Shown one piece after another: positions 54,252 through 64,000 of a stretch of DNA of 64,000 nucleotides. This stretch comes from Fistulifera solaris (lineage: Eukaryota > Bacillariophyta > Bacillariophyceae > Naviculales > Stauroneidaceae), in assembly GCA_030295235.1 (NCBI GenBank), contig AP026124.1:2409221-2473220 (forward strand), written 5' to 3'. Made by a program: the position numbers and the translations under genes. Numbering within the stretch: position 1 is the first letter of the stretch; every line of letters begins with the position of its first letter. The notes below the pieces were generated by a model. The model worked only from the letters and a program-made list of their open reading frames with translations. It was not told the origin of the DNA and ran no database searches.

Positions 54252-55190
54252 TTGAATACGAACAGCAATGAAAACGACAATACACGCCGTTACCATAATG
54301 TTTCTAATGCGGCCGCATTACAACTGCTTTTAGGTCATGTGCGAGGACGAGAAGAATTATTCATCGGCGACGAGAATGATGAGTCTTTAGAAAAGGGAAT
54401 GTTAAAGGCAAACGACCGACATGATGCATCTATAATTTCTTTGTTTGTCAAAGTGATACGATCGAACAGCGGGCGCTGATTACACGCCACAAAGCATATT
54501 TGCCGACGGAATTATCGCAAGAGAAAGAAGATGACAATAAGATATCCTCGAGAGATGGTTTCGTGCACAATTGACTGAGGAAGACGAAGGCGATTTGAAT
54601 GTCGGGTTTTCCCGAAGGGGTTTGCTATTTTCTCCGGAATTGGAAGAGGAGAGGAGATTGATACGAGAAAAAACCCAGACAGAAGGGGAAGGCTTATTTT
54701 CCGAAGAACCTTCAGATCTTGGTAGTGAAGATCAAGACTCTTTTGAATTTCTGGATTCTCCTGTTATTATCGGCGAGATGGATGACAAGGAGGTGAATTC
54801 AGCCGCAATGAGTCCAGAAAATGATTTTTTTGTCGACCGGCTGCAAGCCTTTCTACCAGTTTTCGGAGACGATGCCTCGGAGAAACAATATCTAATTTTT
54901 TCCAACCGATGATTTACCCGATGAGTCGACAATGGAAGACTCGGACCTTTGCCAACCAGTATATAATCTGGAATAAGACTCGGACCTTTGCCAACCAGTA
55001 TATAATCTGGAATCCGATCCAGACAATGAACAAAATTACAGCGAAATCTTTCTCTCCGTCTTTGGAACACTGTCGCCGAATCGATCGCCGGCACCGACTT
55101 GGCGCCGTAGGGAAGCTCTTCTCTGGTTCCGAGTGCAGAACCGTCTTCTCAAATTGTGGAGGACAAAACTAGTATCAAGAAACATGTCCC
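54252..55190 (+). pseudogene. Acidic protein of unknown family, broken, with 39-bp tandem duplication
   Basis: Frames chain from about 54252 through an Arg/Glu-rich segment to a long acidic frame (54571-54912) and then to a Trp/Arg/Leu-rich end. Breaks lie near 54440, 54550 and 54895. A 39-base unit is duplicated head-to-tail at about 54936-55013; the junction creates an in-frame TAA although the insertion itself is a multiple of three. No family recognised. The 3' end overlaps the opposite-strand DUF285 copy G. Confidence 0.4.
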
Positions 55191-58639: not shown

Positions 58640-58993
58640 AATTCGCTAATTTTTCTTTGTGTAGGATCCGTACTGAATAAAGAATCTATGGGACACAAAT
58701 TAGAGTTAGGGTTAGCTCTGGACGTTAGGGTTACGGTTACGGTTAGGGTTAAGAATTTGGAAATTGGGATATGGAACTTGGAACTTGGAAAAAGGAACTT
58801 AGAACTTAGAACTTAGGGTTAGGAATTTGGAAATTGGGATATGGAACTTGGAACTTGGAAAAAGGAACTTAGAACTAGGTAAATAGGAAGTAGGAACCAG
58901 TAACAAGGGAGTAAGGAAGATGGAATAGAAGGAAATGTTGGAAATAAGGGAAAGAAGAAGATTTCATTGGAAATGCAAATCAAACTATCAAAA
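58640..58993 (+). repeat. Subtelomeric repeat block with interstitial TTAGGG and a 70-bp tandem duplication
   Basis: Degenerate telomere repeats at about 58704-58751 (TTAGGG mixed with TTACGG). A 70-base period duplication follows (units starting 58753 and 58823), itself built of 7-mers such as GAACTTG, GAACTTA and GGGTTAG. It looks like decayed telomere-derived sequence marking the start of the subtelomere. Confidence 0.75.
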
Positions 58994-59655
58994 TTATTTT
59001 GTGCAACAAAGACAACTGCAGTTCTGAGTGGGTGCATTTGGATCCATTTCACAGACTTTGATCAATGTTGTACCAATGTGAATGGTGTCCTCTTTGTAGA
59101 ATTGCTGGGTATGATCATAGAGCTTTGTTGTAGTGAGGTGGACAACTGAAGGCGTCATTATGGAAGGCGATTCCTTGCAGTGCATCCAAAACAAGCTTGA
59201 TGCAATTGTCAGCGTCGGGGGCATCGTGACAAACTTGGGTGCATTGCTTTTCAATGGACAGGGTTCTCCTGCGTGCCTCACCAGGAAATGGTGCTTTGGA
59301 CGTGGAAAGTAGAACTTGATGGTAATGGTGCAAGGGTTGCCATTGCAGCGAAAGATTCCAGCAGGGGCTTGCTTCAATGCCTGTTGAAATGCATCACAAA
59401 AGGAGTTCTGATTTGTTTTGCTGGGACTGAACATTTTCACCTTTCCATGTGCTTTGTTTGTTGTTGCAAAATTCACGGTACTGGGGCCGTGGCTTCCCAG
59501 CAATCTGGCAAGTGAAAGAAGCGAAGGTGATCGTTGAACTCAAACTTTGTTGCTGAATTTGGAGGAAAGTAGTACTTTCGCCTGGTGCGGTTCCTGGATG
59601 CTTGGTGCTCTGTTTCCCATGCAAGCCCGGTGCTTACGTCACCTTCCTTTGACAT
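58994..59655 (-). pseudogene. RusA-like Holliday junction resolvase (frame-broken)
   Basis: RusA-family features in order: an N-terminal strand ITFASFTCQIAGKPRPQYR (about 59480-59540), Lys-rich QQNKSE..F and ITIKFYFPRPKHHF strands, then PDADNCIKLVLDALQGIAFHNDA near 59160-59210. That last block matches the RusA D-x-D-N...K...DAL.G......D metal-binding centre. At least two frame changes separate these blocks (near 59450 and 59215). RusA is mostly phage- or prophage-borne in bacteria; a nuclear subtelomeric copy in an alga is unusual. Confidence 0.6.
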
Positions 59656-59789
59656 AGTTGGTTGTTGCTAGACAAATAGTAAGAGAAAGAGTAAGATAAA
59701 ATGCATTGAATAGTTATGTAAAAACCGATTACCTAGAGAAATGCAATGTTGGATGTAATATGAAGGAAATGCAAGAAGGAGAGAACGAA

Positions 59790-60660
59790 TCACGGCTGCT
59801 CAGAGGCGTTGTTGTTGGGCAAGACCATCAATTCATTGTTGTCATTCTTGATGGCAATGATCTGTAAGTCATCCTTGTAAGCCTTTGGAGAAACCAATCA
59901 GGGCAAGATAGGACCTGGGCTGCATGTTAATTGTTGTCAACTGGGCGCCATTGAGGCCAAAGTTTTCTGTTTTCTGCACAAGGAGGTTCTTTGCAGCAAA
60001 AACAGGGAAGAGCCTACATTCGGGCAGCCGCAACAAGGGGACTCTGCATGTTGCGAATAAAGACAGTGACATACTCTTGCTTCAAACTCAAGTAGAACAC
60101 CTGGCCGTTAGGAAAGACAGGCCCATTTTCCGCCATCCAAGTCATTGCCAGCTTATGTTCCTGCATATCCGCCTCAGGAATTGACCACTCAGGAACAAAT
60201 GCACCAATTTCAATGCTGGAAAAGTTCCCTCCGCAGCACGCTTGATACTGGCGTGGTCCTCCCAGAAAGATGGATTGCTGATTTTCTGACCATTCTCGTT
60301 GTAGTAAAACTTCGGTCCCATTCGCGACAGTTCAAGGTGGAAATCTTTTGTCGGTTGCCATGAGTGGAGCGAACAGCATATTGGCCTTGTAGTTTGTGGC
60401 AAAGCTTCTGGAGTTGGGACGGGTCTCATCACGAGGAGCAATGTTTCCAGCATCACGGTGATGGATTCCAATATTTGAAAGTGCCGTCAAGAAGCAGGAT
60501 GCAACAACAGCAGAGAAAAGGTCATTGATGGTAGTGCAAACCGATGCAACATCCATCCCAATACCAGCAAGTTCATTGAGAGCACCATTTGCATAAGCAT
60601 TGGAGATCTGTTGGTTATCGGGAACATCCCACCGTTGGCGACTCTGCAGCATGGGCATTA
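59790..60660 (-). pseudogene. Unknown protein encoded upstream of the RusA-like gene (frame-broken)
   Basis: Minus-strand frames chain from MPMLQSRQRWDVPDN near 60658 through a helical Ala/Asn-rich part (NGALNELAGIGMDVASV) and KFYYNENGQKISNPSFWEDH. They continue into MTWMAENGPVFPNGQVFYLSLKQEYVTVFIRN and end with LQIIAIKNDNNELMVLPNNN near 59790. Breaks lie near 60365, 60200, 60045 and 59885. No family recognised. It shares orientation and spacing with the RusA-like gene, so the two may be one transcription unit or one mobile cassette. Confidence 0.45.
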
Positions 60661-61258
60661 GCCGGCTCCAAAGTGATGTTTTGAATGCGTGTCAGCACGG
60701 ATTAAGGATCGGGCCTACGTTGCCGTTGGCATTTGGCCCATAGTGGCTTATGCCGCGCACAATGCAAGGGGAAGGGTTAGATCACGAACAACATTCACAT
60801 GACGATGAGCCTGGGGTGGATTCTCTTCCCCAGCTGCCTCTGGCACCGAAACAGAGAGCTCCAACAGTACCTGTAGGAGCAACCACGTGATTAGCAGCAG
60901 AAATGCCGCCGGTGAAGCAATCTGTTTTCACGGGGAGGGGAAAGCGAGCACAGAACTGGGGTCTTCCTGCTCCATGAGTCTCTGACAAGCACCACAGAAA
61001 CATGTCGGATCATTTCGACATGGACAGTGATGAAAGGATAAGTTACCTCAAAGGGAAGGGCGCGGAGCAGAGGACGCCGCGTGGTGAGGCGGAAGCTGCT
61101 CGCTGCTTCTTGTATGGATTGCGAAAGGGTAGCATGGTGGGAAGTTTCAAACAAATGGATGTTCCTTACCTGAATGGATGGCCGAATGCAGCGATTCTGT
61201 TTTTTCTTTTGTGGTACCAATGGATGCACAGCACAGTGCAACACTTCTTGGGGGGCAA
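60661..61258 (-). other. Possible further frame of the RusA cassette
   Basis: A minus-strand stretch near 60790-60990 reads Phe/Pro/Gly-rich (FPLPVKTDCFTGGISAANHVV...) and could continue past an AG at 60872 to a stop near 60750. Coding status is weak. Confidence 0.25.
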
Positions 61259-61640
61259 CAAATGAATAACCAGTTAAGAAAATTGCTTGGGCATAATCAC
61301 AAAGAACAAAAATTCTCTATTTGTGAACCAGGTTTTTATGTTAACTGGTAAGTCTGAAATGGATATTATACCAGCCAAGCAGGAAGTTCAATGTTCCAGT
61401 GTTCCTTTGCTTCCCTTTATTTGGCCAACGAATCACCAGTAAAGAAAATTGCTTGGAAGGCAATCAAAAGAACAGAAGATTTACTATTTGTCCACCGGGT
61501 TTTTATTTCTTAAATGGTAAGTCTGAAGCGGATATAATACCAGCCAAGCAGGCATTGCAATGTTGCAGTGTTTTGTTGGTTCTCCTTTTTTTGACAAGCG
61601 AATTACCAGTGAAATTTAATGTCCCGGTGTCCTCTAGCTT
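61259..61640 (+). repeat. Diverged subtelomeric tandem repeat, about 160-bp period
   Basis: Two clearly related units (about 61259-61405 and 61425-61575) share AAGAAAATTGCTTGG, GGTTTTTAT, TGGTAAGTCTGAA and ATACCAGCCAAGCAGG. A third partial unit begins near 61590. Identity by eye is roughly 75-80%. Confidence 0.75.
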
Positions 61641-61650
61641 CTGTTCTTCG

Positions 61651-61677
61651 GGTTAGGGTTAGGGTTAGGGTTAGGGT
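61651..61677 (+). repeat. Interstitial telomeric repeat, four TTAGGG units
   Basis: Perfect GGTTAGGG repeats in the same orientation as the terminal array, located at the 3' boundary of the RT element. Confidence 0.9.
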
Positions 61678-61699
61678 GGAAAAAAGCAGCTATAGGAAG

Positions 61700-63540
61700 A
61701 AATTAAGCTAGAACTACGAAAACCAGCCTGTTGAGACATGTGGGGTGATGGGGAAGATGCAATGAGAATGATGCAGCCAGAAATGCAAGTGGCAGGTTGC
61801 ACAAGAGAAGAATGGACTCCAGATGGGAGAGCAGCAGCTCTAATAGAGCAAAAGACCTGAGCCATCCCAGGTGGGTCTGCTCGCGGAGGGGCTCCATCCC
61901 TCGGTCGCGCAGCAACATGCTGACAGACCCGGACCAGTGAGATACTCAGAGGCGATCGTACAAATCCACACCGCGGTGAAATGCGATCGCCCCCACTTTT
62001 GGACGAAGGCCGAGCCAGGCGTGTGAGACGGCCGTGGCTTGCTTTCGCCCATCAACCATCCACAGAAAAGAGCGAGGGGAGTAAAGTCTGCGTCGGCGTG
62101 CCCTACAGGAGCTCTTCATAGAGGTCCCGCTTCTCACGCTCCTGCTTGGCAAGGACTTTAAAGGGGTCCTGGCCTGAATGGGATGGGGGGCGTCAGTGTC
62201 CGTGACTTTCGGACGTCGAAGATGGTGGTCTTACCCGGGTCCAGAACCCATGGGTAGAGATGTCTCCACGCAACTCCGAAGCTTCTGCGTCTAAGCCAAC
62301 AACCGGTGTGTCGCGATAGGTGTTGATTTTGGGTTCATCGCCCGAACCGCACGGGGCTGAAGAGCCTGTGCACAGAGGACATGACTTCCATTTTCAGGTC
62401 ATCATGTAGCATCGTTACCAGGCCACCCCTTCTTGCACGTTTGGGAGTGCCCGAGAGTGAAGGGTTGCCACACCATCACAGGTGACTGGTAAACGCGGTC
62501 ACTGGGAGACCGATGGGATCTGGGGCGGCTGTCGCGGAACTCATCGCGGGAAAGGTCCGTGCCGTTCAGGGTCTGGGGAAGGACAGAAAGCCAGAGACCT
62601 GTGTGTCTGGCTTTAAGGAGAGCAGCGAGTTTCAGCGGGCCCTCCTACTGACAGATCTGCTGGAGCTGGGCAGCATCTGCAGCCTATCTCTCCCCCCTGC
62701 AGTCGCGAGGCACGCTCCCTCGCATCGCGACTGGTGTGCCGCCAACATTCAAGGGAGCGCTTCGAGAGAAGACTGTCACGAGCGGATTCCGTGATGGAGA
62801 GAGAGCTATGGCGTGATTGTGGGCAGCCGTGGAGGTGGGGTTGAGGATCCCAAGGCCTGCAGACTTAACGCTCAGCTTCGTCAGGAGAGCGCAGTGCATC
62901 TCCTAGCGCTTCATTCTCGCCAAGGAGGGCAGGAATGAACTTCTCCCGGATTTCACGCTCCAATGGGGCGAAGGCTTCACCGCGGTCGGGAAGCACTCTC
63001 TGCAAGTAAAACCACTCAGCCTGGAGTGACTTGCAGAGGCCAGCATATACAGTCTGTGGATACTGCATTGCGGCTTTCGCCAAACCGCGGACCCCGAAGC
63101 ACCACGCATCGATCTGTGGCTTAAGCCACTCCAGCTTGATCAATGGGGCTTCCAATGAATCCTCCAGGTAGCGAGCTCCTGTGGCATACTGAAAGTGAAA
63201 TGCATAAAGTTGTCGCTGGGCCTGAGCCTGGTGTGCTTCGCGGCAGACCAGGATGCTCTTCCGGTTAGGAAGTAACCACGGTGGGGGCCAAAGCGCTGCA
63301 ACAAAAGTGTTGCATTAAAGCAATGCCACGGACACGTTCCATATAACCATATCGTCGAGGCGTACCAGGGCTGAACAACATCCTTGGTAGCGGCGCGAAT
63401 TTGCTGGCGAGTGGTGTAAGAGTGAGACCATACAGGACCATGCTGAGAGGGTCACCTTGGGTGACGCCTTCCGACTCAGTATGGTGCAGCGCAGGGCATA
63501 CGATCGTTGGCGGACAATCAGCACACGCCCGCATGGCATA
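61700..63540 (-). mobile_element. Decayed non-LTR-like reverse transcriptase element between telomere repeats
   Basis: From the telomere side inward: ESEGVTQGDPLSMVLYGLTLTPLA (RT QGDPLS motif, 63430-63480), then a gap where the YxDD block should be. Next come LAKAAMQYPQTVYAGL.KSLQAEW.YLQRV...REKFIPALLG (62890-63100), then GLGILNPT, LNVGGTPVAM, LNGTDLSRDEFRD, and finally RSFLWMVDGR near 62050. This order matches the RT-containing multicopy elements found in diatom genomes. Frames change repeatedly, the 5' part is cut off at the terminal array, and the catalytic centre is deleted, so it is not active. Confidence 0.7.
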
Positions 63541-63554
63541 GCATTGAAAGGCAA

Positions 63555-64000
63555 GGTTAGGGTTAGGGTTAGGGTTAGGGTTAGGGTTAGGGTAGGGTTA
63601 GGGTTAGGGTTAGGGTTAGGGTTAGGGTTAGGGTTAGGGTTAGGGTTAGGGTTAGGGTTAGGGTTAGGGTTAGGGTTAGGGTTAGGGTTAGGGTTAGGGT
63701 TAGGGTTAGGGTTGGGGTTGAGGGTTGGGGTTAGGGTTAGGGTTAGGGTTAGGGTTAGGGTTAGGGTTGGGGTTAGGGTTAGGGTTAGGGTTAGGGTTAG
63801 GGTTAGGGTTAGGGTTAGGGTTGGGGTTGGGGTTAGGGTTAGGGTTAGGGTTAGGGTTAGGGTTAGGGTTAGGGTTAGGGTTAGGGTTAGGGTTAGGGTT
63901 AGGGTTAGGGTTAGGGTTAGGGTTAGGGTTGGGGTTGGGGTTAGGGTTAGGGTTAGGGTTAGGGTTAGGGTTAGGAGTTAGGGTTAGGGTTAGAGGTTAG
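63555..64000 (+). repeat. Terminal telomere array (TTAGGG)n
   Basis: About 446 bases of TTAGGG with occasional TTGGGG, a TAGGG deletion unit near 63590, and a few irregular units near 63720 and 63975-64000. The G-rich strand runs 5' to 3' toward the window end, as expected for a right chromosome end. Confidence 0.96.

Follow-up and report, generated by a model that had tools for sequence, protein, structure and literature searches.

The end of this Fistulifera solaris contig carries a 5′-truncated retroelement, here called element A, embedded in telomere repeats, and the same element recurs at other contig ends with one fixed 3′ end and varied 5′ truncation. The most plausible hypothesis, to which we give a probability of roughly 70%, is that A spreads by reverse transcribing its own RNA onto TTAGGG 3′ ends. 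This is the best explanation of what the copies directly display, namely where they lie and which way they face, the one base at which their 3′ ends are joined, the scatter of truncation points and the TTAGGG outside most of them.

Layout of the contig end

The window analysed here is a stretch of 64,000 nucleotides (C2:2409221-2473220), and since contig C2 ends at 2473220 the end of the window is the contig end. From the inner to the outer side, the last 5.3 kb consist of degenerate telomere-like repeats (about 58701-58751) adjoined by a 64-base piece of a second copy of element B (minus strand, 58743-58806), element B itself (minus strand, 58813-61649), an inner seed of four exact TTAGGG units (plus strand, 61653-61676), element A (minus strand, 61678-63554) and a terminal TTAGGG array running up to the contig end (plus strand, 63557-64000). 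Because A and B are both encoded on the minus strand, their 5′ ends point toward the chromosome end. All 58 exact occurrences of TTAGGGTTAGGG in the window fall in the inner seed and the terminal array, and 100 shuffles yielded none. The seed meets A between 61677 and 61678 (GGGT/GGAAAAA), a join found identically at other ends. The layout bears out the earlier note, which had placed a reverse transcriptase (RT) element between four TTAGGG units and the terminal array, its truncated 5′ side toward that array, with coordinates that prove right within a few bases. A perfect two-copy 39-base tandem repeat in overlapping frames is also present in the window (54936-55013). A conserved GTPase encoded in the window has its closest named match in Fistulifera solaris, at 80% identity.

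The RT and nuclease blocks of A continue in shifting frames on the minus strand from the RT palm block EGVTQGDPLSMVLYG (63427-63471) down to about 61926. The palm blocks span 63359-63471 and include PWYA, the start of the catalytic YADD box, after which the frame shifts (63359-63370). The thumb region lies in a 149-aa frame with 54% identity to P0004 over 124 residues (62865-63314), and two remnants of a restriction-like nuclease, PFTLGHSQTC (62435-62464) and RGDISTHGFW (62241-62270), lie within 62241-62464, in keeping with the family motif. The stretch 61678-61843 is likely the 3′ untranslated region, since similarity to P0004 stops at residue 783 of 785.

Copies of element A across the genome

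A DNA search of the assembly (51.7 Mb, 61 contigs) with 61678-63554 yielded 17 matches, 15 of them at contig ends. The two internal ones, on C5 and C1, are about 83 bases long at 76% identity, and begin at query base 510; their distances to contig ends are about 98 and 113 kb, and the C5 match has an internal RT relative about 1 kb away. A 27-base pattern from the 3′ end of A, allowed up to 3 mismatches across the whole genome, found the same 15 terminal places and none elsewhere (control 0). None of the 15 copies lies farther than 4.3 kb from a contig end, and in all of them the 5′ end points outward. They occupy 14 ends (C2R, C31L, C46R with two copies, C6R, C10L, C41R, C39L, C33L, C20L, C51L, C41L, C35L, C24L and C53L); the contigs of 49 and 47 kb that carry C51L and C53L duplicate C20L and C24L, which leaves 13 insertions at 12 distinct ends. 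Since 4.3 kb at 122 ends amounts to about 1% of the genome, chance placement of the 13 insertions is negligible.

On the inner side, every one of the 15 copies shows the join GGGTGGAAAAA after 2-6 telomere-type units, which are degenerate at C35L, C24L and C53L and include a variant unit in some others. Copies are thus both confined to ends and joined to telomere repeats in 15 of 15 cases, which supports the earlier reading of a telomere-targeting retroelement: the search of other chromosome ends proposed there, for copies abutting TTAGGG, was positive with 15 copies genome-wide, and an even spread of copies lacking telomere boundaries was not seen. Its other suggestion, a one-off RT fragment captured in telomere healing, fails to explain 15 copies with one common 3′ end. 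On the outer side, seven copies pass into the terminal array and six into TTAGGG and element B, so that TTAGGG is the next sequence outward in 13 of 15; at C41R five other bases intervene between A and the array. The remaining two, at C24L and C53L, are followed by a TGCAAGTTGTGCAAG-like unrelated repeat with no intervening TTAGGG.

The copies range from 50 to 2725 bases in length and break off at 13 different points; the two points that occur twice belong to ends assembled twice. The assembly contains neither an intact-frame copy nor one with a complete 5′ end, and only C31L carries the sequence that would lie upstream of the copy in the window. Among the left contig ends read to 10 kb (20 of 61), a TTAGGG array was found at 15, A at 2, B at 8 and neither element at 12; A is a minority occupant of chromosome ends.

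Reverse transcriptase and nuclease class

The class of A is drawn from its relatives. Pfam found no family on pieces of A, and a PDB search with one RT piece of A gave no match. A family profile matched R2 best (E 8.7e-9) and LINE-1 ORF2 next (3.8e-6); in Foldseek the best E was 1.9e-7 and all three matches at E ≤ 0.001 were R2, and the VIA Z scores of R2 (11.0) and LINE-1 (10.6) were tied. With a pattern looser than the published formula, a restriction-like nuclease motif was found in 45 of 103 relatives, in 37 of the 48 whose sequence continues for over 430 aa beyond QGDP and in none of 120 unrelated proteins. The arrangement that marks this non-LTR type, a C-terminal CCHC followed by an RHD/N..E..R/KPD..D/E nuclease, is accordingly present in relatives by the looser pattern, the family of A having RGD where the published formula has R/KPD or RAD, a difference from MoTeR1. 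These motifs and predicted folds suggest that the RT of A is of non-LTR type, R2-like as in its relatives, and that its family bears a putative C-terminal restriction-like endonuclease. Fold matches to spliceosomal Prp8-bearing complexes and to viral cap-snatching nucleases were taken to reflect no more than a common nuclease fold.

SART/TRAS elements belong to the R1 type and carry an APE nuclease ahead of the RT, whereas the nuclease of A's family is predicted to be restriction-like and C-terminal. No Pfam match to an APE endonuclease before the RT was obtained in relatives of 953 and 965 aa; the copies of A end short of this region.

Eighteen internal RT loci are related to A, and none of the 14 that could be checked is terminal. 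They make up a diverse interspersed RT family, detected weakly by Pfam RVT_1, whose relatives, from diatoms to a sponge, carry restriction-like nuclease motifs.

Element B and its RusA-like gene

A search with 58813-61649 gave at least 69 matches to B (40 of 48 candidates scored). In 55 of them the nearest end could be assigned, and each of these is outward in sense and no more than 8 kb from that end; of the remaining 14, one runs the opposite way if a right end is assumed. The match begins within B positions 1-6 in 54 of the 69 cases, and in the window TTAGGGTTAGG occupies 58813-58823 (minus strand), followed by B's own 3′ end. Some copies are close to that of the window, with 4 substitutions in 489 aligned bases at C8L and 2 in 479 at C33L, and at C33L, C41L and C46R copies of A and B follow one another in turn. 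B is thus commoner than A and anchored likewise, and no RT was seen in it, from which it follows that such anatomy can arise with no RT in cis. The fungal element MoTeR2 has ends in common with MoTeR1; unlike that pair, B showed no terminal sequence in common with A.

B contains a remnant of a RusA-like resolvase gene, present as pieces (58994-59539, minus strand), with a KLVLDALQG block in another frame (59172-59198, minus strand). The identification is based on homologues, on a genome search with PF05866 and on a B-type copy at C46R (E 6e-12); Pfam on the frame 58994-59539 itself returned a single sub-threshold unrelated match (E 0.39). Remnants were located in B of the window (58813-61649), at L033:4212-4943 and at C46R 585093-585478, among them a B-type copy that is more distant (about 70% identity). 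No intact RusA frame was seen in terminal copies, and a codon-position test for selection, with one pair past the filter, counted 19, 18 and 19 changes at first, second and third positions in broken frames. Internal RusA frames of 310 aa (C34:84495-84866) and 306 aa (C35:88868-89239) are perhaps a duplicated or homoeologous host pair. Among the matches listed for the literature on RusA and telomeres, no title reported a RusA-bearing telomeric element.

State of the copies

Differences between copies of A, pooled over six pairs of four copies, amount to 15.1% within 4 bases of CpG versus 4.0% elsewhere. The ratio for CpG (3.75) is the highest of the 16 dinucleotides, followed by GpC (2.65), the CpG-linked differences include transversions as well as indels, and B and the twice-assembled ends (C20L/C51L and C24L/C53L) follow the same trend. 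This clustering suggests base-calling error at modified cytosines; the differences may also stem from methylation-driven mutation. The representation of CpG is low in A (0.75) and in B (0.54) versus 1.19 in window positions 1-50000, which likewise points to cytosine methylation. The frameshifts of A, which gather at CpG, may be sequencing errors and are therefore unusable for calling A dead or alive. The reading of A as a dead fossil was withheld because the CpG-clustered differences look like base-calling error.

Telomerase and a model for spread

A telomerase RNA-binding domain was found at two loci (C30:107446-107871 and C31:127823-128248) in frames of 917 and 916 aa, and from its sequence the telomerase gene looks intact. 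The telomerase pair and the RusA pair suggest a duplicated or hybrid genome. HeT-A and TART of Drosophila have their 3′ end joined to the chromosome and stand in for telomerase; the polarity of A is the same, but here telomerase loci and TTAGGG arrays are present.

We infer that a transcript of A would start near the telomere, run inward and finish with a CCCUAA tail templated by the seed. The tail may pair with the TTAGGG strand of a short, broken or nuclease-nicked telomere, the TTAGGG 3′ end of which would prime reverse transcription outward. An early stop of synthesis would produce the 5′ truncation, telomerase could then cap the truncated end with TTAGGG, and repeated addition alternating with B might build the chains at C2R, C33L, C41L and C46R. 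Pairing of a CCCUAA-ended RNA with a TTAGGG 3′ end, followed by outward copying, predicts the polarity that A has, and the terminal arrays start at differing TTAGGG phases, which fits de novo addition. Whether synthesis is primed at an exposed end or at a nick made by the nuclease, the account is in essence the same, and an exposed short end is favoured because the inner tracts hold only 2-6 units. Cutting inside the TTAGGG array, as proposed for SART/TRAS, would make the outer array the old telomere, in keeping with the nuclease of the family and with the outer TTAGGG of 13 copies; this form is possible but doubtful, given that terminal arrays reach about 100 units at the same ends as the short inner tracts, that other bases precede the array at C41R and that outer TTAGGG is lacking at C24L and C53L.

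The main rival needs no active RT: a broken end invades interstitial TTAGGG, break-induced replication copies outward, and erosion with telomerase healing truncates the product, the RT being a relic. Such replication with erosion yields similar maps, and the available part of one source documents break-induced replication at MoTeR ends (PMC7367193). The equal behaviour of B, in which no RT was seen, counts for this passive spread and against telomere priming, as do inner flanks with sequence in common, which could equally arise by recombination: 328 bases are common to C39L and C46R at 92%, and B-type pieces are common to the flanks of several copies. Furthermore, C33L and C41L both carry the composite B[1-727] + B[1380-1550] outside differently truncated copies of A. 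Telomere priming is also weakened by the unrelated repeat, in place of TTAGGG, outside A at C24L and C53L, by the ordinary RNA fold of the 3′ end of A (z −0.31) and by the lack of any intact or 5′-complete copy. However, truncation points differ from one distinct end to the next, the flanks of C2R, C31L, C6R, C41R, C33L and C35L match no other among the 15 compared, and no common donor end is seen where A has no further A outside, so that passive spread is judged unlikely. That noisy-read contig ends were closed with telomere-like sequence is scarcely credible; base quality is doubtful near CpG and two small contigs repeat two ends, but the same join is found at 12 distinct ends. Local misassembly, raised in the earlier note, is likewise unlikely in view of the junction GTTAGGGTTAGGGTTAGGGTGNAAAAA, which recurs at 8 contig ends (≤1 mismatch, 7 of 8 exact; reversed control 0).

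Relation to known telomeric elements

A is probably closer in its working to the fungal MoTeR and FoTeR elements than to SART/TRAS or Athena, the kinship earlier suggested; the C-terminal restriction-like endonuclease and the R2-like fold predicted in relatives prompt this correction. In anatomy, too, MoTeR and FoTeR appear to be the closest systems. As described in the available parts of the sources, MoTeR1 of Magnaporthe/Pyricularia oryzae is a non-LTR element with a restriction-like nuclease, lies inside telomere repeats with its 5′ end always nearest the chromosome end and undergoes 5′ truncation and telomere addition (PMC7367193), all of which resembles A and the nuclease of its family. 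MoTeR and FoTeR have 3′ TAACCC tracts and the polarity of A (PMC7367193, PMC12857005). FoTeRs of Fusarium oxysporum, in the portion of the report available, have 3-7 TAACCC after their 3′ ends, occur at chromosome ends only and have more truncated than full copies (PMC12857005); A is alike in its short tract of telomere units, truncated copies and terminal location. FoTeRs differ in having full-length copies with intact frames, of which A has none in the assembly, and in co-localising with helicase genes, whereas A co-localises with the RusA-bearing B.

From the parts available, SART/TRAS of Bombyx mori are non-LTR elements specific to telomere repeats (PMC10088271), and Athena of bdelloid rotifers, with an endonuclease-deficient Penelope-like RT, is added at chromosome ends, after which telomeric repeats are placed on the truncated 5′ end (PMC3846280). 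A resembles Athena in the latter respect; unlike an RT lacking an endonuclease, its relatives have an R2-like RT with a predicted C-terminal nuclease.

Significance

Telomere-targeting retroelements have so far been reported in few lineages, those named in the available part of one source being insects, Giardia, Chlorella, a blast fungus and a lizard (PMC10088271). In the open-licence literature on diatoms and Fistulifera, no title among the matches listed reported a telomere-targeting RT in a diatom, and the available parts of PMC9266582, PMC8147415 and PMC8329260 describe none.

One may speculate, though this is rather improbable, that A and B form a two-part system beside telomerase, in which the telomere-primed A adds the resolvase-bearing B in trans and a CCCUAA-ended RNA is the sole common address; if true, the Holliday-junction resolvase of B would help settle recombination provoked by nested ends. 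The diatom case would put the restriction-like-nuclease kind of element at the chromosome ends of another distant lineage, beside an intact-looking telomerase gene, and makes it a testable question whether a TTAGGG 3′ end and a CCCUAA-tailed RNA are all that such elements require.
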